Positions 7,314 to 59,180 of a stretch of 64,000 nt of DNA are shown in pieces. The notes beneath the pieces are model-generated. The model did no database searches. It was not told where the DNA came from and saw only the letters and a list, made by a program, of their open reading frames with translations. The position numbers and the translations under genes were made by a program. The DNA comes from Candidatus Rokuibacteriota bacterium (GTDB lineage Bacteria; Methylomirabilota; Methylomirabilia; Rokubacteriales; CSP1-6). Each line of letters begins with the position of its first letter. Position 1 is the stretch's first letter. Where the stretch lies: assembly GCA_003220435.1 (NCBI GenBank), contig QHSL01000069.1, positions 1-64,000 on the forward strand. Reading direction: 5' to 3'.

Positions 7314-8711
7314 TCAGGGCGCCTTGGGCAGGGTGACGGGGCCGTGCGGCGTCTGCGAGAAGTCGAACGCCTCGAGCGGCGCGGCGGCGCGCCGGTCGCG
7401 CTCGGTCAAGGGCTCGAGGCCGAAGCGCCACTCGATCAGCTTCAGGACCGAGGCGTGGTCGTACTCGCGATGGCCGATGACCCCGCGCCGGGCGTAGGGC
7501 GAGACGATCAGCGCCGGCACGCGCGAGCCGAGCCCGAAGCGGTCCACGACGGGCGGACGGACGTGGTCGAACCAGCCGCCGCCCTCGTCGTAGGTGATCA
7601 CCACCACCACCCGCGGCCAGTAGCGGCTCGCCATCACGTCCGCCACGATCTCGCCGATCCAGCGATCGCCGGCGCCGACCGTCGAGGACACCGCGTGCGC
7701 GTTCTGCCTCCAGTGCGGCTTCACGAACGAGACCGCCGGCAGGCTGCCGTCGCGCAACGCGCGGTTGAACTCGGACCCGTCGCGGATGCGGGTACGCGCC
7801 TCCGCGGTCTCCATGATCCGCTTCACGTACTGGAACGGGTTGTGGTGCGGCGTCAGGCCCTGCTTGACCGCGTCGGCGCCGCCGCCCCAGCCAGCCGCGA
7901 ACCACGCCCAGGACACGCCCGCCGCGTCGAGTCGGTCCCCGATCGTCGGCGCCGTCTGCGGCTCGTGGAGGATGCGCGTCACGCGCTGCGGCGGATAGGG
8001 CGGATCGATATTGTTGACGACCCAGCCCTCGGGATCGACCTCGCCGTCCTTCTCGACCCGCCCGTTGGGCCCGACGCCGACGGCGCGCTCCGCGGCGGGC
8101 GCGTCCGGATAACGCGCCACGGCCCCGGAGATCAGGTAGAAGTGATTCGGGAACGAGCCGCCGTGGATTCCCTGGAACCAGTGATCCAGCAGCACGAACT
8201 CGTCGGCCAGCCGCCACTGCACCGGGCTGGCCACCCGATCGTAGTAGCCCATCGTGATTCCACCGCTCGTTCCCTCCGCGACCCATCGGCCCATCGGGAT
8301 GCCGTCGGCGCCGGCGCCGTATTGCCGTTGCATATGAAAGAAGCGATGGACCGGATTGTTGGTCTCGTCGAACGGTCCGACGAAGCGAAGCATCGCGAAC
8401 GGCGCGTTCGGCAAATCCGCGGGGAAGCGCGCATCGGGCTTGCCCTCGCGCCCGAGCGCGGGCGGCAGCGCCGGGTAGGTTGCGCCGTTCATGTCAGCCT
8501 GCCGGCCGCGGTAACCCGCCAGCCCGTCGGCGCCCGGATAGGTCCCGAAGAGGTGATCGAACGAGCGGTTCTCCAGGAACAGCACCACGATGTGATCGAT
8601 CGGGGCCCGCGCGCCGGTCGATGCCTCGCCGCCGGCGAGCCCGGCCGCGCACGCCGCCAGGACGGCGGCGACGAGGGCGAGCGCGACGACTCCTGAACCG
8701 CGACCGAGCAT
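7314..8711 (-). CDS. secreted phosphoesterase (AcpA/phospholipase C family), lipoprotein
   Basis: A 465-residue phosphoesterase of the non-haemolytic phospholipase C/acid phosphatase A superfamily (alkaline-phosphatase fold). The N-terminal signal has a lipobox (LAAC). The family metal/phosphate motif FLENRSFDHLFG follows near residue 45. Further signatures are an FPNH segment, a HAV stretch, and TYDEGGGWFDHV, with Asp/Glu/His metal ligands, near residue 360. It probably cleaves phosphate esters outside the inner membrane. Start ATG 8711 lies only 18 bp from the divergent start at 8730. Confidence 0.9.
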   Translation of the reverse strand: MLGRGSGVVALALVAAVLAACAAGLAGGEASTGARAPIDHIVVLFLENRSFDHLFGTYPGADGLAGYRGRQADMNGATYPALPPALGREGKPDARFPADLPNAPFAMLRFVGPFDETNNPVHRFFHMQRQYGAGADGIPMGRWVAEGTSGGITMGYYDRVASPVQWRLADEFVLLDHWFQGIHGGSFPNHFYLISGAVARYPDAPAAERAVGVGPNGRVEKDGEVDPEGWVVNNIDPPYPPQRVTRILHEPQTAPTIGDRLDAAGVSWAWFAAGWGGGADAVKQGLTPHHNPFQYVKRIMETAEARTRIRDGSEFNRALRDGSLPAVSFVKPHWRQNAHAVSSTVGAGDRWIGEIVADVMASRYWPRVVVVITYDEGGGWFDHVRPPVVDRFGLGSRVPALIVSPYARRGVIGHREYDHASVLKLIEWRFGLEPLTERDRRAAAPLEAFDFSQTPHGPVTLPKAP

Positions 8712-8729
8712 GCGGTATTCTACCTGACC
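8712..8729. promoter_or_regulatory. symmetric bidirectional promoter in an 18-bp divergent gap
   Basis: The whole space between two divergent ATGs is 18 bp. Its centre GGTATTCTACC is a near-perfect palindrome that reads TATTCT (8716-8721) on the plus strand, 8 nt before ATG 8730, and TAGAAT (8722-8717) on the minus strand, 5 nt before ATG 8711. CTGAAC at 8693-8698 gives the plus promoter a fair -35 with a 17-nt spacer. Both messages would be essentially leaderless. Confidence 0.5.
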
Positions 8730-11042
8730 ATGGCGACACCAAGACTGATGGGAGCGGAAGTCCGGCGCAAAGAAGACCCCAGGCTGATCACGGGCAGCTC
8801 GACCTACGTGGGGGACATCACCCTGCCCGGAATGCACTACGTCGCGTTCGTGCGCAGTCCACACGCGCACGCGCGCATTCGAGGGATCGACGCCTCGGCG
8901 GCATCGAAGCGACCCGGCGTTTTCACGGTGGTCACCGGCAACGACATACGCACCCTCTGCGCGCCGCTGCCGCTTGCCGCCGCCGGCGAAGGCGGCGGTG
9001 GTGAGGCGACGGCCAACACCGGACGCAAACACTACCCGCTCTCGATCGACCGCGTGCGCCACGTCGGAGAAGCCGTCGCCGCCGTGATCGCGACGTCGGA
9101 ACCGGCCGCGGTGGATGCCGCCGCCGAGGTGGTCGTCGACTGGCAGCCGCTGCCGGCGGTGACCGATGTGTTCGCGGCCATGGCCAAGGGCGCGCCCCTG
9201 ATCCACGACGACGCGCCGAACAACATCGAGCACCAGAACGCGATCAAAGCAGGGGACCCAGACGGAGTCTTCGCGAAGGCCAAGCGCGTCGTGAAGCAAC
9301 GGATGAACAGCCAGCGGCTCTGCGGCGTGCCGCTCGAGGGACGCGCCACGCTGGCGGCACCCGATCCGGCCTCGGGCGGGCTGGTCATGTGGGCGACGAA
9401 TCAGGCGCCGCACGGCCTTCGCAACGACCTCGCGACCGCCCTCGATCTGCCGCAGAACCTCATCCGGGTGATCGCCCCCGAAGTGGGCGGCGGCTTCGGC
9501 GTCAAGTTCGGCTGCTATCCGGAGGATGCGACGCTCGCCGTCCTCGCGCGGCGCTACAAGATGCCGCTCCGGTGGACCGAGACGCGGCTCGAGCACATGA
9601 TGGCGACCACTCACGGCCGCGCCCAGATTACCGACCTCGAGGCCGCCGTCGAGGACGACGGCACCATCACGGCGCTCCGCATGCGGGTCACCGCCGACAT
9701 CGGCGCGTACCCGGTCTTCACGTTCATCCCCGATCTCACGCTGGGAATGGGCATCGGCGTCTACAAGGTGGCGAACATCGATCTGCAATCGACGTGCGTC
9801 TTCACCAACTCGACCTCCGTCGCCGCCTACCGCGGCGCCGGCCGCCCGGAGGCCGCGTACTATCTCGAGCGGCTGATGGACGTGATCGCGGCGGAGCTGG
9901 GCCGGGCGCCCGAGGAGATTCGGCGGAAGAACTTCATCCCCCCGGGCGCGTTCCCGTACGCGGCGCCGACCGGTCAGAACTACGACAGCGGCGAGTACGA
10001 TCGCGCGCTGACCAGGGCGCTCGAGACCGCCGGTTACGCGAAGCTCCGCGCCGAGCAGAAGGAGCGCGTGCAGCGCGGCGATCGCAAGCTCCTCGGCATC
10101 GGCATGGCGTGCTACGTCGAGATGTGCGGCTTCGGCCCCTTCGAGAGCGCGGTCGTGCGCGTCGAGCCCGGCGGGACGGTGACCGCGTATACGGGCACGT
10201 CGGCCCACGGCCAGGGCCACGAGACCGCCTTCTCGCAGATCATCTCCGACCACCTCGGCGTGCCCTTCGACAAGATCGTGGTGCGGCACGGCGACACGCT
10301 GAACACGCCGATGGGCAACGGCACCGGCGGCAGCCGCAGCCTCGTCGTGGGCGGCTCGGCGATCCTCGGCGCCACGCTCAAGGTCCAGGAGAAGGTCCGC
10401 CGGCTCGCGGCCCACATGCTGGAGGCGGCGGCGGACGACGTGGTCTTCGCCGCGGGGCGGTATCAGGTGAAGGGCGTGCCCGGCAAGGCGCTCACGCTCG
10501 AGGCGATCGCGCCCAAGGCCTACGGCGAAGGCCTCCCCGACGGCATCGAGTCGGGCCTCGAGGCCACCGAGTTCTTTCGCCCACCGAACCTCGTCTATCC
10601 CTTCGGCGCCCACGTCGCGGTGGTCGAAGCCGATCGCGACACCGGCCGCGTGACCGTGCGCAACTTCATCTCGGTCGACGACTGCGGCGTGCGCATCAGC
10701 CCGACGCTGGTGGCGGGACAGGTGCACGGCGGCCTGGCGCAGGGGATCGCGCAGGCGCTGCTCGAGGAGCTGGTCTACGGCGCGGACGGACAGCTCGTGA
10801 CCGGCACGCTGATGGACTACGCGGTGCCGCACGCCGACGATCTGCCGTCGTTCGTCACCGGCGAGACCGTCACGCCGACGCCGCGCAACCCGATGGGCGC
10901 CAAGGGCATCGGCGAGGCGGCCACCATCGGCTCCACGCCCGCGATCGTGAACGCGGTGGTGGATGCGCTGCGCCCGTTCGGCGTCCGGCACCTCGACATG
11001 CCGCTCCGCCCCGAACGGGTGTGGAAGGCGGCCGCGAAGTAG
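8730..11042 (+). CDS. xanthine dehydrogenase/CO dehydrogenase family molybdopterin-binding large subunit (form II type)
   Basis: A 770-residue large subunit of the molybdenum hydroxylase family, near the usual 780. It binds Mo-molybdopterin cytosine dinucleotide and hydroxylates a substrate using water. The active-site loop reads AYRGAGR at 366-372, the signature of form II (CODH-like), not the AYxCSFR of genuine aerobic CO dehydrogenase. The C-terminus carries the conserved AKGIGE glutamate motif. The FAD (CoxM) and 2Fe-2S (CoxS) subunits that normally sit next to it are absent in this window, so it is an orphan here. Leaderless start at 8730. Confidence 0.93.
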   Translation: MATPRLMGAEVRRKEDPRLITGSSTYVGDITLPGMHYVAFVRSPHAHARIRGIDASAASKRPGVFTVVTGNDIRTLCAPLPLAAAGEGGGGEATANTGRKHYPLSIDRVRHVGEAVAAVIATSEPAAVDAAAEVVVDWQPLPAVTDVFAAMAKGAPLIHDDAPNNIEHQNAIKAGDPDGVFAKAKRVVKQRMNSQRLCGVPLEGRATLAAPDPASGGLVMWATNQAPHGLRNDLATALDLPQNLIRVIAPEVGGGFGVKFGCYPEDATLAVLARRYKMPLRWTETRLEHMMATTHGRAQITDLEAAVEDDGTITALRMRVTADIGAYPVFTFIPDLTLGMGIGVYKVANIDLQSTCVFTNSTSVAAYRGAGRPEAAYYLERLMDVIAAELGRAPEEIRRKNFIPPGAFPYAAPTGQNYDSGEYDRALTRALETAGYAKLRAEQKERVQRGDRKLLGIGMACYVEMCGFGPFESAVVRVEPGGTVTAYTGTSAHGQGHETAFSQIISDHLGVPFDKIVVRHGDTLNTPMGNGTGGSRSLVVGGSAILGATLKVQEKVRRLAAHMLEAAADDVVFAAGRYQVKGVPGKALTLEAIAPKAYGEGLPDGIESGLEATEFFRPPNLVYPFGAHVAVVEADRDTGRVTVRNFISVDDCGVRISPTLVAGQVHGGLAQGIAQALLEELVYGADGQLVTGTLMDYAVPHADDLPSFVTGETVTPTPRNPMGAKGIGEAATIGSTPAIVNAVVDALRPFGVRHLDMPLRPERVWKAAAK

Positions 11043-49808: not shown

Positions 49809-50483
49809 CTACTTGACGATCTCGAGCAGCTCGATCTCGAAGACCAGTGTGGCGCCGGGCTTGATGACGGGCGGCCGGCCCTGATCGCCGTAGGCGATGT
49901 CCGACGGGCACACGAGCTTGCTCTTGCCGCCCACCTTCATCATCGGGACGCCCTCGGTCCAGCACTTGATGACGCCGGTGAGTGAGAGGGTGAGGGGCTC
50001 GTTGCGCTGCATGGAGCTGTCGAAGACCGTGCCGTCGGCGAGCGTGCCCTGGTAGTGCACTTTTACCTTGTCCGTGGCCTTGGGAGAGGCGCCGGTGCCG
50101 GGCTTGAGCGTCGTGATGACCATGCCCGAGGCGGTCCGCGTCGCTCCCTTCTCGACCGCCGCCTTGTCGAGGAAGGTCTGGCCGGCCTTCTTCTCGATCG
50201 AGGCCGCCACGCTGGCCCGCGCGGTCTGGAGCGCCGGGATCTTCGGGCCGTACGTCTGGACGTCGACCCTAAACTCTTTCTTGAGGACGCCGTCGCTGAC
50301 GCCGGCCAGGACCGCCTCCAGGTCGGCGGGGCTCAAGGCGAACGCAGCCAGGTTCTGGCTGATCACGAGCCCCAGAGCGTAGAGCGTCTTCTGGTCCTCG
50401 CTTTTGAGATCGGGACCGGCGGCGCTGGCGACGGTGACGGCGGCCAGGACGAGGGCGGCGGCGACGTGGAGAGCCTTGAGCAT
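49809..50483 (-). CDS. FKBP-type peptidyl-prolyl cis-trans isomerase, exported
   Basis: A 224-residue periplasmic protein-folding enzyme. Signal peptide to about residue 21 (VASAA-G). An N-terminal FkpA/MIP-like helical dimerisation domain (about 25-110) with the YALGLVISQN pattern leads to the FKBP domain (about 112-224): VKVHYQGTLADGTVFDSS, VIKCWTEGVPMMKVGGK, IAYGDQGRPP, LVFEIELLEI. Start ATG 50483, ribosome site AAAGGA. Confidence 0.95.
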   Translation of the reverse strand: MLKALHVAAALVLAAVTVASAAGPDLKSEDQKTLYALGLVISQNLAAFALSPADLEAVLAGVSDGVLKKEFRVDVQTYGPKIPALQTARASVAASIEKKAGQTFLDKAAVEKGATRTASGMVITTLKPGTGASPKATDKVKVHYQGTLADGTVFDSSMQRNEPLTLSLTGVIKCWTEGVPMMKVGGKSKLVCPSDIAYGDQGRPPVIKPGATLVFEIELLEIVK

Positions 50484-50544
50484 AGGAGTCCTTTCTTCGC
50501 GCCGATTGACGTAGGATAGGTCGATCTTCTCACGGGAGGCCGGG

Positions 50545-51081
50545 ATGCCGGAATCGATTCCTGCGCCGTTGATCATCGACACGCTCAAGGACACGTTCCG
50601 CGAGGCCCGTGGGGCCAGCGCGCGCGAGCCGCTCGGCTGGATCCTGTCCGTCCCCGACACGCATCAGAAGACGGTGCTCGCCGCTCTCGACAAAGAGCGC
50701 GCGCTCCGCGTCGTCACGTGCGCGACCGAAGACGAGGCCAACGCGATTGGTGCCGGGCTCTGGATCGGCGGCGAGCCGTGCGTGCTCATGATCCAGCACG
50801 CCGGGCTCTACGCCTCGGTGAACACGCTGCGCGGCGTCTCCATGGACGGGCGCGTGCCGATGTTTTACCTGATCGGGCTCCTCTCGCGCGAGCGGGACCG
50901 CGAGCCGCGCGAGTCGCGCCACTCGATGGTGCGCTTCTGCTCGCCCCTGCTCAACACCTTCGGCGTCCCCCACGCGATCATGGAGGGGCCGGACGACGTC
51001 CACTTCATCCCCGAGTACTTCCGGCTGAGCCGCGAGCGTCGCGGCCCGGCGGCGGTGCTGGTCGGCCTGGAGACGAGCTGA
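50545..51081 (+). CDS. ThDP-binding decarboxylase-like subunit, Pyr-domain (alpha)
   Basis: A 178-residue protein equal to the N-terminal (pyrimidine-binding) domain of a ThDP enzyme, as in the alpha subunit of sulfopyruvate or phosphonopyruvate decarboxylase. The activating Glu is in CATEDEANAIGAGL (E62 or E64). LIQHAGLYASVNTLRG matches the ComD-type segment. GGGAGG at 50534-50539 sets ATG 50545. Its TGA overlaps the next ATG (TGATG), so the two subunits are made together. First gene of a six-gene plus-strand run. Confidence 0.88.
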   Translation: MPESIPAPLIIDTLKDTFREARGASAREPLGWILSVPDTHQKTVLAALDKERALRVVTCATEDEANAIGAGLWIGGEPCVLMIQHAGLYASVNTLRGVSMDGRVPMFYLIGLLSRERDREPRESRHSMVRFCSPLLNTFGVPHAIMEGPDDVHFIPEYFRLSRERRGPAAVLVGLETS

Positions 51082-51656
51082 TGGCCATGAAGCCCGAGGA
51101 CGTGCTGCGCGCGATCGCCGCCGCCCGCGGCGATGCCATCTGTGTGCCGACCATGACCACCTCGCCGGCCTGGCGCACGCTCGCCCCGGACGATCTCTCG
51201 ATCGGATGCGTGGGCTTCATGGGCGGCGCCTCGTCGCTCGGGCTCGGCCTGGCCCTGGCGACGCCGACGCGACGGGTGATCGTCTTCGACGGCGACGGCT
51301 CGCTCTTGATGCAGCTCGGCTCGCTCGCGACAATCGCCGGCGCCGCGCCCCGCAACCTGACGCACCTTCTGTTCAAAAACGGCGTCTACCATACCTCGGG
51401 GGCGCAGGAGATCCCGGGAGGTCTCACGGTAGACTTCGTGACGATGGCCAAGGGCGCGGGTTATCGCAAGGCGTACGCGGTCACCGAGCTCGACGACTTC
51501 AAGCGGCGTCTGCCATCGATGCTGACCGACGAGGGGCCGCTCCTCGTCGAGCTCCACACCGGGCTAGCCGACAAGACGCCCATGACCGATCGTTCGGGCG
51601 TACCGTTCAATCAGCAGGTCGACAATCTTAGAACGAGGCTCACCAAGGCCGGCTGA
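51081..51656 (+). CDS. ThDP-binding decarboxylase-like subunit, PP-domain (beta)
   Basis: A 191-residue partner of the upstream gene, carrying the diphosphate-binding domain: FMGGASSLGLGLALA, then GDGSLLMQLGSLA (GDG at 71-73) to N100 in LFKNGVYHTSG, the full Mg-ThDP motif. Together the two give one active site at their interface. They likely decarboxylate a 2-oxoacid with a polar third group (sulfo-, phosphono- or similar), or a related acid. Confidence 0.9.
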   Translation: MAMKPEDVLRAIAAARGDAICVPTMTTSPAWRTLAPDDLSIGCVGFMGGASSLGLGLALATPTRRVIVFDGDGSLLMQLGSLATIAGAAPRNLTHLLFKNGVYHTSGAQEIPGGLTVDFVTMAKGAGYRKAYAVTELDDFKRRLPSMLTDEGPLLVELHTGLADKTPMTDRSGVPFNQQVDNLRTRLTKAG

Positions 51657-51703
51657 GCCGCACCGCCGATCCGGAGAACCATGACCGGACGTAGGGACTG
51701 GTG

Positions 51704-52525
51704 ATGGCGTCGCGGACGATGGACGATTTCAAGCTGGATACGTACCTGCGGCGCGCCGGCGCGCTGGATCTGTCGGCGATCGATTGGGCGGCGATCCCGC
51801 GGCATCCCCTGCCGCCGGAAGCCATCCGGACGATGCGCTACATGCAGGACATCGAAAGCCACACGATCGTCTATCTCCGGTCGCTGCTGGCGACCCGCGC
51901 GATCGACGAGCCCGACGTGGCCACGTTCCTGGCGTGCTGGGTCAACGAAGAGACCTTTCACGGCATCGCCCTCGAGCGCTTCCTGGCCGCCGCCGGCCAT
52001 CCGATCGGGCCGCGCCCGACGCCTCACGGCCACGAGAACCCCGCCCAGTGGCTGGAGGCGCGGGGCATCGCGCTGCTGTCCCGCCTGTGGGGGGACTTCT
52101 GCGCCGTGCACATGACCTGGGGCGCGATCAACGAGCTGACCACGCTCATGGGCTATCGCCGCCTGGCGGCGCTCACGTCGCATCCGGTGCTGGCGGAGAT
52201 GCTCGAGCGCATCCAGAGCGACGAGTCGCGTCACTTCTTCTTCTACTACCGCCAGGCGGAGATCCGGCTGCAGCGTCCGCTCGTTGCCCGGGTCTCCCGC
52301 TGGCTCGTGGATCGTTTCTGGGGACCGGTGGGCAGTGGCGTCCAGCCTCCGCGCGAGCTGCGCTTCATGGCCGGCTACCTGTTTTCCGATGAGGAAGGCC
52401 TTGCCGCCGCCCGAAAGGTGGACGAGACTATTCGGCGTCTGCCGGGGTTCGCCACTGTGCAGCTCCTTGAGGCTTGGCTGGATCGGTACGTCAAGGGAGG
52501 ACGCAATGGCCACAGTCGCGCCTGA
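51704..52525 (+). CDS. ferritin-like di-iron protein
   Basis: A 273-residue helical protein with a full six-ligand di-iron site in ferritin/type-2-desaturase order: E51, E83-x-x-H86 (NEETFH), E144, and E174-x-x-H177 (DESRHFFFYY). Related proteins are acyl-ACP desaturases and di-iron N-oxygenases. ATG 51704 is favoured over GTG 51701 by AGGG 7 nt upstream. The last 20 bp hold the ribosome site and start of the next gene, so the proteins are translationally coupled. Its presence with an ATP-driven dehydratase module is unusual; see findings. Confidence 0.8.
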   Translation: MASRTMDDFKLDTYLRRAGALDLSAIDWAAIPRHPLPPEAIRTMRYMQDIESHTIVYLRSLLATRAIDEPDVATFLACWVNEETFHGIALERFLAAAGHPIGPRPTPHGHENPAQWLEARGIALLSRLWGDFCAVHMTWGAINELTTLMGYRRLAALTSHPVLAEMLERIQSDESRHFFFYYRQAEIRLQRPLVARVSRWLVDRFWGPVGSGVQPPRELRFMAGYLFSDEEGLAAARKVDETIRRLPGFATVQLLEAWLDRYVKGGRNGHSRA

Positions 52526-54017
52526 CCACTACCGCGCCTACACTCCCCAGCCCTTCACCCGCGCCGAGCGCGATTCGGTGACGATCCTGTTCGGCGGGCT
52601 GCACTGGCGCATCGAGCGCATTCTGCAGGCCGTCCTGGAGAGCAGCGGGTACAAGGCGCAGATCCTGCCGGTGGCCACAAAGGACGATCTGCTCACCGGC
52701 CGCGAGGTCGCCGACATCGGGCAGTGCTGCCCGACCAGCTTCACCACCGGCAATCTCGTCAACTTCCTCAAGAAGGAAGCGAGGCAGACGAGCGCCGAGG
52801 ACGTGAGCAAGAAGTTCATCTACCTGACGGCGGGCTCCTGCGGCGCCTGCCGCTTCGGGCAGTACCACCAGAGCTACGAACTCGCGCTCCGCAACAGCGG
52901 TCTCGGCGCGTTCCGCATGTTCCTGATGGCGCAGGACAACCTCGACCAGAACATGGGCGACGGCCTCGACCTGAACCTCGGAATGACCCTGGGGTGCCTG
53001 TGGGGTATTTTCTGCACGGACCTCATCCAGGACCTCGAGTACCAGGTGCGGCCGTACGAGGTGCTGCCGGGCCAGACCGAGGCGGTCGTCAAGGAGAGTG
53101 TCGAGTACCTCTACGAGGTCTTCCGCCACCGGCCGGCGATGACGCCGAAGAAGTCGGTTCTGTGGCACCTCGCCACGCCGTACTTCGCCCGTGCGATGCG
53201 CGAGGTGCGCCGGAAGTTCTCCGAGATCGAGGTCGACCGCCTGCGTGTGAAGCCGAAGGTGAAGATCACCGGCGAGTTCTATCTCCAGACCGTCGAAGGC
53301 GACCCCAACTACAACATCCACCGCTGGCTCGAGGCCGAGGGCGCGGAGGTCTATCCCGCGGCGATCACGATCTGGATGGACTACCTGCTGCGGCTCGGCC
53401 TGCAGCGGTTCGAGGACTACAGTGGCGTCGAGAAGGGCGCGCGGTTGAAGCTCGGCCTCGGCCGGCTGGCCCAGGGCATCTATCGCCTCACCGTCAACCG
53501 CCTCCGGCGCGCGATGGGCAACCTGCCGCACGAGATCCCCAGCCAGTTCGAGCTGCGTCGGCTGGCGGCGCCGTACTTCCACCGGAACCTCGACGGCGGC
53601 GAGGGCGACATGCTGGTCGGCAAGTCGATCTGGGCCTTCCAGAAGAAGAAGGCCCACATGATCTGCGAGCTGTCGCCGTACTCCTGCATGCCGAACACGA
53701 TGTCGATCGGCGCGATGGCCGGCGTGCTCGGGAAATTCCCCGAGATCCTCTACGCGCCGCTCGAGATCAAGGGCGACGCCGAGGTCCACGCGCTGTCGCG
53801 CTGCCAGATGATCCTGACCGAGGCCAAGAAGCGTGCCCAGCGTGAGTTCGACGACGTCCTGGCCCGCACCGGCCTCACCGTGGACGAGGTGCGCGCCTAC
53901 CTGCACGCGCACCCCGAGATGCGCAAGGCCACCTACCGGATCCCGCACGACGGCGCCGCCGCCGGCACCGCCGCCAAGCTCGTCCTCCACGTCGCCTCCA
54001 GGATGGGCCGCCGGTGA
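52506..54017 (+). CDS. 2-hydroxyacyl-CoA dehydratase/double-cubane-cluster-like component (COG3581 type)
   Basis: A 503-residue protein of the HgdB/BcrC-DCCP relatives. Cys that can hold an Fe-S cluster: C74-C75 in GQCCPTSFTTG, C112/C115 in GSCGACRFGQYH, and C387/C394 in ICELSPYSCMPNT. The CRFGQY and SPYSCMPNT segments are the family signatures. In many anaerobes this is the last part of a single chain of about 1,400 residues (BadF-BadF-DUF2229-COG3581); here it is a separate, first gene. ATG 52506 with GGGAGG 5 nt upstream, inside the di-iron gene. Confidence 0.85.
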   Translation: MATVAPDHYRAYTPQPFTRAERDSVTILFGGLHWRIERILQAVLESSGYKAQILPVATKDDLLTGREVADIGQCCPTSFTTGNLVNFLKKEARQTSAEDVSKKFIYLTAGSCGACRFGQYHQSYELALRNSGLGAFRMFLMAQDNLDQNMGDGLDLNLGMTLGCLWGIFCTDLIQDLEYQVRPYEVLPGQTEAVVKESVEYLYEVFRHRPAMTPKKSVLWHLATPYFARAMREVRRKFSEIEVDRLRVKPKVKITGEFYLQTVEGDPNYNIHRWLEAEGAEVYPAAITIWMDYLLRLGLQRFEDYSGVEKGARLKLGLGRLAQGIYRLTVNRLRRAMGNLPHEIPSQFELRRLAAPYFHRNLDGGEGDMLVGKSIWAFQKKKAHMICELSPYSCMPNTMSIGAMAGVLGKFPEILYAPLEIKGDAEVHALSRCQMILTEAKKRAQREFDDVLARTGLTVDEVRAYLHAHPEMRKATYRIPHDGAAAGTAAKLVLHVASRMGRR

Positions 54018-56329
54018 GTCAGAACACTGAGCGGATGACGGAACGCTCCGAGCGCGGACTTCGCCCGCGCGATCCCAATCCTGGATCTGTCGGGGTAGAC
54101 GGACCGGCGACCCGGTGGGGGGGTCTGGGGGAGGAGCGGCGCTCGCTCCCCCCCAGCAGAATGGTCGGGGTCGACGTCGGCTCGACCACCGTCAAGGCGG
54201 CGGTGGTCGAGGAGGACGGCAAGGTCAGCTGGCAGGACTATCAGCGCCACAACACGCGCCAGGCCGAGAAGGTCGCCGAGTTCCTCGAGCGCATGGAGAC
54301 CGAAGCCGGGCTGACACCCGGCCAGGACCGCATCTTCTTCACCGGCTCCGGGGCCGGCTTCCTGGCGCCGCTGGTCGGCGCCAAGCTGATCCAGGAGGTC
54401 GTGGCCGTCGCCGCCTGCGTCGAGAAGCAGCATCCGAACGTGCGCTTCGTGTCCGAGATCGGCGGCGAGGACATGAAGACGATCTTCTTCACCGAGACCG
54501 GGACCGGAAAATCCAAGCAGGTGTACATGCAGTCGGCCTGCAGCGGCGGCACCGGCACCTTCATCGAGAAGACGGCGCGCAAGCTCCAGGTGGCGAGCGA
54601 GCGGCTCGCCGAGATGCCGTATGAGGGCATGAGCCTGCACAAGGTGTCGAGCAAGTGCGGGATCTTCGCCGAGACCGACGCCAACACGCTGGTGAAGACC
54701 GGCGTGCCGGTCGAGGAAATCATCGCCAGCCTCTTCGAGGCGGTCGTCTACCAGAACCTGGCCACGCTGACCAAGGGCAACACGCCGATGCCGGAGGTGC
54801 TACTGCTCGGCGGCCCCAACCTGTTCTTCAAAGGGTTGCAGGAGGCGTGGCGCCACCACCTCGCCAAGCTGTGGACGCAGCGCAAGATCGAGTTGCCGGC
54901 GGGTCAGACGGCCGCCGACCTCATCCTCGTCCCCACCGAAGCGCTCTACTACGCGTGTTTCGGCTGCGTCGAGATCGGCCGCGGCGAGAAGCCCGAGGTC
55001 GGCGTCTACCAGGGGCGCGACAAGATTCTCTGGTGGGTGAAGGAAGGCCAGCACGAGCAGAAGGCCAAGGACGGCGCCCGGGGCCTGATCACCGGCCAGG
55101 ACGATCTGGCGACGTTCGTCAGCGAGTACGTGCGCCCGGCCAGCGCCTGCGCCGCGCAGCGCGAGCCGTACGCGGACCCGGTGCTGATCGGGTGCGACTT
55201 CGGCAGCACGACCGCCAAAGCGGTGGTGATGTCCGAAGAGCGTGAGCTGCTGTTCTCGTGCTACGCGCTGTCCAAGGGCAACCCGATCGAGGACGCCCAG
55301 TCGCTGTTCCGCCAGGTCGGCGAGGCCGGGTTCACCAACATGGCGGGCCTCGCGCTGACCGGCTACGGCAAAGATCTATTGGTGGACGTCCTGGGCGCCG
55401 ATGTCGGCGTGGTGGAGACGGTGGCCCACGCCACCGCGGCGCTCCATTACTACTCGGACGCCGACGTGATCTGCGACGTGGGCGGCACCGACGTCAAGAT
55501 CATGATCCTCCGCCAGGGCACCGTCGCCGACTTCCGGCTCAACAGCCAGTGCTCGTCCGGCAACGGCTCCTTCTTGCAGGGGGTCGCCGAGCGCTACAAC
55601 ATCCCGCTCGAGCAGTACGCCGACCGGGCATTCGAGGCCAAGGCGATGCCGAGCCTCACGATGGGCTGCGGCGTGTTCTTGCAGTCCGACATCGTCAACC
55701 AGCAGCGCAAGGGCTGGTCGGCCGAGGAGATCATGGCCGCGCTGGCAGCGGTGCTGCCGGTCAACGTGTGGATCTACGCCGGCCAGCTCCAGAACCTCCG
55801 CGCGGTCGGCCGCAAGTTCGTGCTCCAGGGCGGCACCCATCGCAACATGGCGGTGGTCAAGGCGCAGGTCGACTTCATCCGCAGCAAGGTGCCGGACGCC
55901 GAGGTGGTGCTGCACCCCTATTCGGGCGAGGCCGGCGCGATCGGCGCCGCGCTCTGCGCCGCCGACTGGAAGAAGAACGGCGGCGCCACGCGCTTCCGCG
56001 GCTTCGAGACGATCGCGGCGCTGACCTACCAGAGCACGACCGCCGCCGAGACGGTCTGCAAGTGGTGCCCGATCAACTGCACGCGCACGTTCATCGACGT
56101 GCACCTGCCCGGCGCCAAGGGCCGGCCGTGGAGCAAGGTGCCGCTGGCCGAGGGCTGGGAGCGCGTGATCAGCGGCAACTCGTGCCCGAAGGGCCTCGTC
56201 GAGGACGTCAACGAGATGCGGGTCGTGAAGGCGAAGCTCGAGGAGGTCAAGCGTGACTACCCTAACGTTGCCGAGATGGTTCGGAAGGACGCGTTCCGCC
56301 GGGTCAGCGCCGCCGCCGTCGCGCAGTAA
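54014..56329 (+). CDS. tandem BadF/HgdC-type ATPase (acyl-CoA dehydratase activase)
   Basis: A 771-residue fusion of two ASKHA ATPase domains. Each has phosphate-1 (DVGSTTVKAA at 54-63; CDFGSTTAKAV at 394-404) and both Cys that ligate the dimer-bridging 4Fe-4S cluster in HgdC (C176/C215 and C513/C552). One chain could thus make the activator dimer by itself. A C-terminal Cys set follows (C682, C685, C689, C724). It hydrolyses ATP to push one electron into the partner cluster. The start is doubtful: GTG 54014 overlaps the upstream stop (GTGA), but conserved sequence begins at ATG 54161, after a hairpin at 54125-54156. Confidence 0.9.
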   Translation: MSQNTERMTERSERGLRPRDPNPGSVGVDGPATRWGGLGEERRSLPPSRMVGVDVGSTTVKAAVVEEDGKVSWQDYQRHNTRQAEKVAEFLERMETEAGLTPGQDRIFFTGSGAGFLAPLVGAKLIQEVVAVAACVEKQHPNVRFVSEIGGEDMKTIFFTETGTGKSKQVYMQSACSGGTGTFIEKTARKLQVASERLAEMPYEGMSLHKVSSKCGIFAETDANTLVKTGVPVEEIIASLFEAVVYQNLATLTKGNTPMPEVLLLGGPNLFFKGLQEAWRHHLAKLWTQRKIELPAGQTAADLILVPTEALYYACFGCVEIGRGEKPEVGVYQGRDKILWWVKEGQHEQKAKDGARGLITGQDDLATFVSEYVRPASACAAQREPYADPVLIGCDFGSTTAKAVVMSEERELLFSCYALSKGNPIEDAQSLFRQVGEAGFTNMAGLALTGYGKDLLVDVLGADVGVVETVAHATAALHYYSDADVICDVGGTDVKIMILRQGTVADFRLNSQCSSGNGSFLQGVAERYNIPLEQYADRAFEAKAMPSLTMGCGVFLQSDIVNQQRKGWSAEEIMAALAAVLPVNVWIYAGQLQNLRAVGRKFVLQGGTHRNMAVVKAQVDFIRSKVPDAEVVLHPYSGEAGAIGAALCAADWKKNGGATRFRGFETIAALTYQSTTAAETVCKWCPINCTRTFIDVHLPGAKGRPWSKVPLAEGWERVISGNSCPKGLVEDVNEMRVVKAKLEEVKRDYPNVAEMVRKDAFRRVSAAAVAQ
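54125..54156 (+). other. GC-rich inverted repeat near the activase start
   Basis: An imperfect hairpin: left arm CTGGGGGAGGAGC, right arm GCTCCCCCCCAG. It lies between the GTG 54014 and ATG 54161 start options. If ATG 54161 is real, the hairpin sits in a 143-bp leader and its left arm contains a GGAGGAG sequence. Possible translational control or an internal transcript end. Confidence 0.5.
56241..56247 (+). promoter_or_regulatory. consensus ribosome binding site inside the activase gene
   Basis: AGGAGGT, 5 nt before GTG 56253. It fixes the start of the DUF2229 gene 77 bp inside the upstream reading frame and shows that the overlap is meant for expression. Confidence 0.7.
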
Positions 56330-57446
56330 GCTGCGGCTCGGCATCCCGCGCGTCCTCAACCTCTGGAACACCCATCAGTTCTGGATGGGGCTCCTGGGTG
56401 CGCTCGGCTTCGACCCGCGCAACATCGTCTTCTCGTCGGACACCTCCGAGGAGCAGGGCCGCCAGTTCGGCAAGGGCCGCGGCACCGTCGACTGCTGCTA
56501 CCCGGTGAAGTGCATGTCCGGGCACTATGGCGAGCTCGTGTTCGGCCAGAAGCAGAAGCTCGACATTCTCCTCTCGCCCATGATTTATACGTTGCCTTCT
56601 TTCCTCAGCGGCCACGTCGCCAAGACCCTCACCTGCCCACGGGTCATGGCCGCCCCTGAGAACATCAAGGCGGGATTCCTCAAAGAGGGCGATGCGTTCG
56701 CCGAGAACGGCATCCGGTACTGCAGCCCGTTCGTCTCGCTGGACGAGCCACTGATCGTCCCCAAGCAGCTCTTCGAAGGCATGAAGGACGCGCTGCCCGA
56801 CCTCACGCGCGAGGAGATGGCGCGCGCGGTCGACGCCGGCTACAAGGCGCTGCACGCCTTCAACGACAAGCTGCGCAAGAAGTCACGCGAGGTCCTGGAG
56901 TGGTGCGCGCGGGAGGACAAGCCGTGCCTGATGGTGGTCGCGCGCCCCTACCACATGGACCCGGGCATCGGCCACGAGATCGAGGTCGACCTGCAGGCCT
57001 ACGGCTATCCGATCCTCTGGATGCAGTACTTCCCGATCGACGCCGACCTGATGGACTGGGCGTTCGGCGACGACGTCCGGGCCGGCCACGTCAAGAGCGC
57101 GTTCGACATCCACGACGTGTGGCAGTCGTCGTACTCGTCCAACACCAACGAGATCCTGTGGGGCGCCAAGGTGGCCGCGCGGATTCCATGGATCGCCTGC
57201 GTGCTGCGGATGTCGAGCTACGAGTGCGGGATGGACCAGCCGACCTACTCGCCGGTGCAGCAGATCGTCGAGCGCTCGGGCACGCTCTTCTTCTCGTTCC
57301 AGGACCTCGACTCCACCAAGCCGGCGGGCTCGGTGAAGATCCGCGTCGAGACCATCACGCACTATCTCGAGAAGTACGCGGCGGACATCATCAATCGCAA
57401 GAAGGCCGCGATGCCGCCAGGCTGCCCCCTGCTGCCGGCGGCATAG
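56253..57446 (+). CDS. DUF2229 family, acyl-CoA dehydratase activase-related protein
   Basis: A 397-residue protein of the DUF2229 group (activase-related, COG3580). LGIPRVLNLWNTHQFWMGLLGALGF opens the domain (in pieces); the Cys motif DCCYPVKCMSGHYGEL is the family mark, with further Cys in LTCPRVM, RYCSPF and SSYECGMDQPTYS. It completes the three-part dehydratase/reductase module. The first 25 residues precede the homologous region. Its 3' end overlaps the convergent metallopeptidase gene by 56 bp. Confidence 0.87.
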   Translation: MTTLTLPRWFGRTRSAGSAPPPSRSKLRLGIPRVLNLWNTHQFWMGLLGALGFDPRNIVFSSDTSEEQGRQFGKGRGTVDCCYPVKCMSGHYGELVFGQKQKLDILLSPMIYTLPSFLSGHVAKTLTCPRVMAAPENIKAGFLKEGDAFAENGIRYCSPFVSLDEPLIVPKQLFEGMKDALPDLTREEMARAVDAGYKALHAFNDKLRKKSREVLEWCAREDKPCLMVVARPYHMDPGIGHEIEVDLQAYGYPILWMQYFPIDADLMDWAFGDDVRAGHVKSAFDIHDVWQSSYSSNTNEILWGAKVAARIPWIACVLRMSSYECGMDQPTYSPVQQIVERSGTLFFSFQDLDSTKPAGSVKIRVETITHYLEKYAADIINRKKAAMPPGCPLLPAA

Positions 57447-58308
57447 CCCGGCTCAGGTCCTCCAGCCGCGCCCGGAACTCGTCGGTGAACTGGCGGTACG
57501 GAATCGGATAGGCCGTCGTCCAGTTCTCCCCGGGGGCGGACTCGAGCGCGAACCGCCCCATGAACTCGGCAAGCTTCGCGCTGCCGTAGCGCTCGATGAG
57601 CCAGTCCACCGCCAGGAAGGCCTGGCAGTACGTCGTGATCGCGCCGAGCTTCCGCGTCCAGTCCGTCCAGCCGGCGGTGCCCGAGAGCGTCTGGAGATCG
57701 GGGAAGAGCTTGATCGGCGTCGCCGCGCCCACGACGGCGCGGACGACGTTCTGTCGCGACTCCGCGTAGGGCCGATAGCCGAGCATGTCGCGCACCTGGA
57801 ACTTCACCCAGTCGGCGTGACCCTCGAGGATCCAGACGGCGGGTCGGAGCTTGCCTCCCTCGCCCAGCTTGCGCTGGCTCACGTGCGCCAGCTCGTGCGC
57901 GAGGAGCCCGGCCCTCCCTTGTAAATGCATCCACGCCATGTGGTCGCCGCGCAGGAAAACGCCGTTGCGCGTCGCCACCCCGGAGGCGTTGCGCCACCGG
58001 TCCCACGCCTCGTTGCTCTTCTCGCCGCCGAGCGTGACGAGCCCATCGACCAGCGTCGCCTCGTTCACGTAGACGTACGCTTTGGTCACCGCGGGAAACG
58101 GAAGATCGAGCTTGTTGTTCATCAGCCAGGCGATGGAGTTGATCAGCTCGGGATCGCCCGGGCTCGCGCCCAGCGGCGGCGGCGCCTCGCCGGTGAACTT
58201 GATGTCGTACTCCCGATAGGGGCCGGCGGCGGTCGGGGTGGCCACCGCGAACGCAAGCGCCAGCACCAGCAGGAGTGGCGCGATGCGGATGTGCCGACGA
58301 TGCCTCAT
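57391..58308 (-). CDS. exported zinc metallopeptidase (gluzincin-like), copy B
   Basis: A 305-residue secreted protein. Signal peptide to about residue 28 (hydrophobic PLLLVLALAFAVA). Zinc site HELAH at 138-142 with third ligand E162 in LEGHADWV, the peptidase-MA-like order. It is a tandem paralogue of the next gene: both share REYDIKFTG/REHEIRIDG, GVFLRGD, GQAFLAVD/CQAFLAVD, ERYGSAKL and PxxYxQF. ATG 58308 overlaps the stop of the paralogue. It may clip envelope or extracellular proteins. Confidence 0.87.
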   Translation of the reverse strand: MRHRRHIRIAPLLLVLALAFAVATPTAAGPYREYDIKFTGEAPPPLGASPGDPELINSIAWLMNNKLDLPFPAVTKAYVYVNEATLVDGLVTLGGEKSNEAWDRWRNASGVATRNGVFLRGDHMAWMHLQGRAGLLAHELAHVSQRKLGEGGKLRPAVWILEGHADWVKFQVRDMLGYRPYAESRQNVVRAVVGAATPIKLFPDLQTLSGTAGWTDWTRKLGAITTYCQAFLAVDWLIERYGSAKLAEFMGRFALESAPGENWTTAYPIPYRQFTDEFRARLEDLSRAMPPAAGGSLAASRPSCD

Positions 58309-59180
58309 TCCTGGTTTGGGGGATGGCCCTGGTCGCCCGGCGCCCCGCTCCGCAAGTGCGAGCGGAAGTCGTCGACGAATTGCGGATACGAGATGGGGAA
58401 GACGCTGTCCCAGCACTCGCGGGTGCCGGGCGCGCGCGAGAAAGCACTGAAGAATTCGACCAGCTTCGCGCTGCCGTAACGCTCGGCGAGGCGGTCCACC
58501 GCCAGGAACGCCTGACCGTACGTCGCGGAATGGTTGAGGCTCCGGGTCCACCGCGACCATTCGTTGCGGCCGTCGAGCGCAACGAGACCAGGAAGCAGGG
58601 TGGGCGGGATCGCCCCGTCGACGACGGAGCGCGCGACCTGGGCCCGCCGCACACTGTAGGCCCCGTATCCGAGCCGGTCGACCACGTTGAGGGCCACCCA
58701 TTCGGCGTGGCCCTCCACGATCCACCGCGGGACTTCGTGCACGCGAGGGCCGGCCAGCTCCTGCTGGCTCAAATGTGTCAGCTCGTGGGCGATGACCTCC
58801 ACGCGACCAGCGAGGGGCCGGCGCGCGAGATAGTCCCCTCGAAGAAAGACGCCGACCGGCGTCGCCATGCCCGCCGCCAGGGTCACGCTGCCATCCCAGG
58901 CTCGCGCGCCGAAATTGCGAAGGACGCCTTCGGAGAACGCATCCTCGTCACGGCACACGTACGCCTTGCGCCACGCCGGAAGCTTGAGATCGAGCTTGTC
59001 GCGCACCACCGCAGCGACGGCATCGACGATATCGAACACGCTCGCGTCCGGGTTCAGCGCCGACGGCGCCTTGCCGTCGATCCGGATCTCGTGCTCCCGG
59101 CAGGGTTCTGCCGCCATGCCGGGGCCGGCGAGAGCCACCAGGAGCAGGACGAGCGATGTCAGCCGCGTGCGATCCCTCAC
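58305..59180 (-). CDS. exported zinc metallopeptidase (gluzincin-like), copy A
   Basis: A 291-residue paralogue of the downstream gene. Signal peptide to about residue 24, HELTH at 132-136, E156 in VEGHAEWV. Two Cys (C27, C76) may pair in the periplasm. It is coupled to copy B by a 4-bp overlap (ATGA). It lies 1 bp upstream of the acyl-CoA ligase stop with the same orientation. Confidence 0.87.
   Translation of the reverse strand: MRDRTRLTSLVLLLVALAGPGMAAEPCREHEIRIDGKAPSALNPDASVFDIVDAVAAVVRDKLDLKLPAWRKAYVCRDEDAFSEGVLRNFGARAWDGSVTLAAGMATPVGVFLRGDYLARRPLAGRVEVIAHELTHLSQQELAGPRVHEVPRWIVEGHAEWVALNVVDRLGYGAYSVRRAQVARSVVDGAIPPTLLPGLVALDGRNEWSRWTRSLNHSATYGQAFLAVDRLAERYGSAKLVEFFSAFSRAPGTRECWDSVFPISYPQFVDDFRSHLRSGAPGDQGHPPNQE

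Follow-up and report, generated by a model that had tools for sequence, protein, structure and literature searches.

The window analysed here, 64,000 nucleotides in length, is part of a metagenome-assembled genome of a soil bacterium of the Rokubacteria. Six plus-strand open reading frames, A to F, occupy positions 50545 to 57446, as the first-pass annotation had placed them. The features of the locus, and the evidence on which each assignment is based, are as follows.

50545..51081, plus strand: A, alpha (PYR-domain) half of a ThDP enzyme, ComD-like (TIGR03845 and TIGR03297, below cut-off)
51081..51656, plus strand: B, beta (PP-domain) half of a ThDP enzyme, with a GDG...KNG ThDP motif (PF02775)
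51719..52525, plus strand: C, ferritin-like di-iron protein with an acyl-ACP desaturase/R2lox fold (PF03405, AlphaFold, Foldseek, synteny)
52506..54017, plus strand: D, COG3581-type partner protein (homology to the C-terminal part of fused activases, cysteines)
54018..54160, plus strand: D–E spacer containing a 44-bp dispersed repeat, probably non-coding (repeat copies; spacer missing or minimal in relatives G001 and G013)
54161..56329, plus strand: E, two tandem BadF/ASKHA domains followed by a C-terminal CxxCxxxC...C motif (PF01869, TIGR00241)
56253..57446, plus strand: F, DUF2229 (COG3580-type) partner protein (PF09989, E–F chain in relatives, cysteines)

The tight packing of A–F was borne out. 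A and B overlap at a TGATG (51079–51083), C and D overlap by 20 bp (52506–52525), and E and F by 77 bp (56253–56329); the gap between B and C is 47 bp, provided that C begins at ATG 51704. Candidate starts for C are GTG 51701, ATG 51704, and ATG 51719, the last being the best conserved. The order A–F is retained in nine genomes of the same genus, with some contigs stopping early and C broken in three, and the dN/dS values of the intact genes (0.05–0.27) indicate that these are under purifying selection. Downstream of the operon, at 57391–59180, are two neighbouring genes on the minus strand, similar to each other, whose weak matches are Peptidase_MA-like; they are apparently a tandem duplication.

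The junction between D and E had been described as a GTGA overlap at 54014. These letters are present, but they are probably not the start of E. For most homologues the alignment begins only near residue 49 (MVGVDVGST, ATG 54161), which from sequence is the most likely start of E. The resulting 143-bp spacer (54018–54160) holds a 44-bp GC-rich dispersed repeat, of which there is an exact copy on contig C94 of the same genome (G000:C94:16093-16136) and copies of 82–86% identity on C108 and C2. The spacer is absent in G001, in which D and E overlap as TGATG, and only a few bases long in G013. The GTGA overlap is probably an artefact of this repeat, and the spacer is probably non-coding and open in the frame of E by chance; its predicted RNA structure was no greater than in shuffled sequences (z −1.3). 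In several relatives the 44-bp repeat likewise lies between D and E and is open in E's frame.

E matched PF01869 with 246 bits (cut-off 31.5) over two stretches, which correspond to two BadF domains, and TIGR00241 with 219 bits (cut-off 125), in agreement with its first assignment as a BadF-type ATPase. By sequence, E also matched the solved structures of HgdC (1hux), HadI (4eht), the DCCP reductase (7yyl), and MbdQ (9gai). Each of its ASKHA domains has two cysteines (C128/C167 and C465/C504), invariant in the seven sequences compared. In all, eight cysteines of E are conserved among distant homologues, two in each ASKHA domain and the remainder in the C-terminal CxxCxxxC...C motif, the second cysteine of which is missing from the fused protein of G110.

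F had been assigned to the DUF2229 family, and its match to PF09989 (142 bits) confirms this; among relatives F is joined to E in one chain. No Pfam or NCBIfam family matches D; its homology is to the C-terminal portion of fused activase proteins of 1400–1450 amino acids. In each of the two proteins exactly three cysteines are invariant, distant homologues included (C74, C115, and C394 in D; C82, C128, and C325 in F), as expected of cluster-binding partners. This number resembles the active-site [4Fe-4S] cluster of the benzoyl-CoA reductase subunit BzdO, which is held by three cysteines (Cys95, Cys128, and Cys380; PMC11971306). D and F align weakly with each other by hhalign (E 0.007, probability 5%), with the first core cysteines, C74 and C82, paired.

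Similarity of D and F to proteins of known function was otherwise scarce. We found no sequence link of either protein to HGD-D/PF06050 (no Pfam match for D, DUF2229 alone for F), the hhalign comparisons of both to YjiM were non-significant, and a sequence search for solved structures returned no relative of D or F. The structure model of D was poor (pLDDT 61) and yielded no meaningful Foldseek match. A reductase role for D and F therefore rests on E, gene order, and the cysteines. No PF06050 partner was found in the genome, and a search of plasmids with D returned only distant proteins of the 2-hydroxyacyl-CoA dehydratase/activase type (23–24%). Nothing relevant to DUF2229 or COG3580/COG3581 was found in the literature library searched. 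Further cysteines conserved within the clade lie near the core cysteines in sequence (C75, C112, C387, and C433 in D; C81, C87, and C316, and also C218 and C225, in F). These are mostly missing in distant homologues, and the total cysteine content of D and F is not unusual for their families. A double-cubane cluster held by the additional cysteines would be no more than a lead, as their spacing is unlike that of BzdN (e.g., Cys36, Cys263, and Cys293), positions being compared without alignment.

We compared the arrangement of D, E, and F in 95 genomes of the phylum and at loci belonging to other phyla. A close D (~69% identity or more) occurs in 26 of the 95 genomes. Myxococcota and one further genome of the family have an E–F fusion followed by D, a few Myxococcota have the order D–EF, and E, F, and D form one chain of ~1400–1450 amino acids in two genomes of the family. 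The existence of these versions identifies D, E, and F as pieces of one known machine. Judged by sequence, D–E–F is thus the core of the locus, a rearranged and split form of the widespread BadF-BadF-DUF2229-COG3581 machine, proteins of which are named 'acyl-CoA dehydratase activase-related'. Many Rokubacteria have this machine, as do ~31% of the genomes of the Myxococcota phylum that were searched (284 in total). The fused and split versions have the same three parts and the same invariant cysteines as the locus studied here. Unlike these, the present locus has three genes with D first, E and F separated by a split with a 77-bp overlap, and a di-iron gene overlapping upstream. One relative, G010, has two C–D regions on different contigs (G010:C2 and G010:C58; L058 and L059), each ended by a contig edge.

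The identification of C as a ferritin-like di-iron protein was upheld by sequence and fold. C matched PF03405 (FA_desaturase_2) with 24.9 bits (cut-off 22.7), and its six carboxylate and histidine ligands (E..ExxH..E..ExxH) are invariant over 24 sequences. The AlphaFold model of C (pLDDT 86) matched stearoyl-ACP desaturases and R2lox in Foldseek. C therefore has the fold and all six ligands of acyl-ACP desaturases and R2-like ligand-binding oxidases; unlike these, it is shorter (~268 amino acids), with 13–18% identity to the best-matching solved members.

A and B had been described as the halves of a split ThDP decarboxylase-like enzyme, and this held, with B matching PF02775 (TPP_enzyme_C) at 60.7 bits and A having sub-threshold matches only. 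The matches of A were to TIGR03845 (59 bits, cut-off 148) and TIGR03297 (41 bits, below cut-off), with no others in Pfam or NCBIfam. B scored 97 bits against TIGR03846 (cut-off 221.5) and 112 bits against TIGR03297 (cut-off 312.5), so that both proteins fall below the equivalog cut-offs for sulfopyruvate decarboxylase (TIGR03845/TIGR03846). Like sulfopyruvate and phosphonopyruvate decarboxylases (ComDE), A and B are two ThDP half-proteins, but all of their scores are far below the curated cut-offs. Orthologues of A–B occur in most Rokubacteria, including ~20 genomes that have no close D. Outside the genus of the window, B orthologues were found in 36 genomes, mostly at 73–84% identity, and in all 16 of these that bear D, B is on a different contig from D. 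Thirteen A–B loci sampled outside the genus had no C–F gene nearby; in seven of them an FKBP gene lies close to A in divergent orientation, as in the window. The divergent FKBP-isomerase/ThDP-alpha pair (49809–51081) is kept in several genera of Rokubacteria, and the starts of the two genes often overlap.

We consider it likely that the six genes form a cluster of three layers differing in age rather than one pathway. In this reading D–E–F is the core, C is an addition that would be accessory to the core and not a necessity, and A–B, a two-subunit ThDP decarboxylase-like enzyme in its own right, is a neighbour that would belong with the FKBP gene on its left. The C–D co-occurrence in Myxococcota described below (p 0.0006) stands against the accessory part of this reading, as it would fit a closer tie of C to D–E–F.

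How C relates to D–E–F may be judged from its distribution. Of the 26 genomes with D, 18 have C immediately upstream of it, mostly with overlapping ends; counting broken copies, the arrangement spans nine genera. It is likely to be translationally coupled to D. The Rokubacterial C proteins group together in the C tree (support 95/96), which fits a single recruitment, and the placement of C ahead of D in Rokubacteria was probably a one-time event. Among 59 relatives, all 16 of the genomes that have C also have D. Four genomes keep D but no intact C: only remnants of the gene are left in G002 and G005, and a frameshift interrupts it in G006 and G015. The three members of the Rokubacterial D clade whose D is most diverged (G009, G086, and G104) have no C beside it, and in one further genome of the 26 (G093) the contig ends at D. 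Assembly errors may account for frameshifts in metagenome-assembled genomes, but they explain the two large deletions less readily. The remnants of C lie between intact B and D genes (L053:8300-8620 in G005 and the end of L050 in G002), a loss in situ within a tight operon.

Outside Rokubacteria, homologues of C were found at 17 loci in Deltaproteobacteria/Myxococcota, Gammaproteobacteria, Planctomycetota, Acidobacteriota, and Actinomycetota, and on a Streptomyces plasmid; the flanks examined held none of the genes A, B, D, E, and F. D is missing altogether from 13 of the 17 genomes. The two genes show no linkage in the Myxococcota phylum, in which 11 of the 15 genomes having a strong C also have a strong D, as against 76 of the 269 without a strong C (odds ratio 7; Fisher p 0.0006, uncorrected for kinship). 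This co-occurrence keeps a functional tie of C to D–E–F alive. Conversely, a strong C is missing from 76 of the 87 Myxococcota that have D. At four loci (L098, L099, L101, and L090; Myxococcales and a gammaproteobacterium) the C homologue adjoins a diacylglycerol-kinase-like gene (YegS-type, by eye), a hint of lipid-related work. The Streptomyces megaplasmid has two diverged C paralogues, separated by ~2.4 kb, in a region without annotation (L069:4904-5638 and 8001-8768).

C might be an independent acyl-modifying di-iron enzyme that is co-transcribed with D–E–F and shares no task with it, a reading we regard as less likely than not. It accords with C being a lone gene elsewhere with varied neighbours, sometimes diacylglycerol-kinase-like, with its repeated loss in place, and with its faster evolution relative to D (90 versus 98% identity to G003). 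Yet the adjacency and overlap with D have lasted across genera, and within the family C is strictly present only with D. These same features, together with the odds ratio in Myxococcota, speak for C–D–E–F being a functional unit in Rokubacteria, with A–B irrelevant to it, in which C would consume oxygen near the oxygen-sensitive reductase or oxidise its (acyl-type) product or substrate. Three COX1-family oxidase genes in the genome of the window imply that oxygen is met. We regard this second reading as somewhat unlikely, however, given the four genomes in which C is deleted or frameshifted with D kept, the three in which it is absent beside D, the D-bearing Myxococcota without a strong C, and the 13 other-group genomes having C without D. 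The first-pass annotation had proposed that C acts on a product or guards the reductase by scavenging oxygen. C could be such a guard, but most genomes with D outside Rokubacteria do without C, and the idea is weakened by those 76 of 87 Myxococcota, by the three members with diverged D, and by the four lost or broken copies; such a guard is not needed.

The composition, gene order, distribution, and conserved cysteines of D–E–F are observed, and from comparison with characterized systems we infer a mechanism for it. In class I benzoyl-CoA reductases (BcrABCD, BzdNOPQ, and MbdNOPQ) and in 2-hydroxyacyl-CoA dehydratases with HgdC/HadI, the ASKHA ATPase has two cysteines per domain, as does E, which matches 1hux, 4eht, and 9gai; the partners in these systems are paired, as D and F, with three cysteines each, would be. 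Unlike those partners, D and F have no detectable similarity to PF06050, and the ASKHA pair of E is one tandem chain with an additional C-terminal CxxCxxxC...C. E also matches the reductase chain of the double-cubane cluster protein (DCCP) system (7yyl_E), but unlike that system the genome of the window has no PF06050 protein, and the positions of the six-cysteine [8Fe-9S] pattern of BzdN (36/73/100/263/293/327) have no obvious counterpart in D or F. By analogy, E would be an ATP-driven electron activator, and D and F its acceptor pair. A low-potential electron would enter E at the C-terminal four-cysteine motif and pass to a [4Fe-4S] cluster held between the two ASKHA domains by two cysteines from each. 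ATP hydrolysis would drive the electron on to three-cysteine clusters in F and D, at which a putative substrate may undergo a difficult one-electron reduction or a radical dehydration.

D–E–F could instead be an ATP-driven reactivator or maturase, for example one that re-reduces the cofactor of another protein, and not a substrate reductase. The lack of a PF06050 partner in the genome and of any conserved CoA-related neighbour seen beside D–E–F would agree with this, as would the match of E to methanogenesis marker 15 (TIGR03286, 129 bits, below cut-off). We think it unlikely, since D and F have three-cysteine sites of their own, as in the catalytic partner of benzoyl-CoA reductase and hydroxyacyl-CoA dehydratase.

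A single pathway of the six genes, in which a ThDP decarboxylase and di-iron chemistry are joined to an ATP-driven dehydratase/reductase, was first proposed from their tight packing and is since matched by the order conserved in nine genomes of one genus. It is highly improbable and largely refuted by distribution: A–B is located upstream of C only in that genus (9/9), every other genus has it at a different place, frequently in a genome lacking C–F, C–D–E–F occurs without A–B in other genera, and the set does not co-occur in unrelated taxa. By the refuting condition that the first-pass annotation had itself named (ThDP or di-iron genes beside unrelated genes in most relatives), the neighbours thus speak against a single system for A–B and, as C outside Rokubacteria is never beside D, E, or F, for C there as well.

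The layered reading leaves a lineage-specific C–D–E–F operon, a rearranged variant of a known machine. With little confidence, we raise the further prospect that this operon joins a di-iron enzyme that uses oxygen to an ATP-driven low-potential Fe-S reductase in aerobic soil bacteria, a linkage born in Rokubacteria and paralleled by an unlinked tie in Myxococcota; it might then constitute a Birch-type or radical reductase that tolerates oxygen and whose cluster is perhaps enlarged near the additional cysteines of D and F. What looked like a striking six-gene 'pathway' comes apart into layers when relatives are compared, and the question narrows to what the DUF2229-type machine reduces in bacteria with haem-copper oxidases, and whether the di-iron protein helps it.
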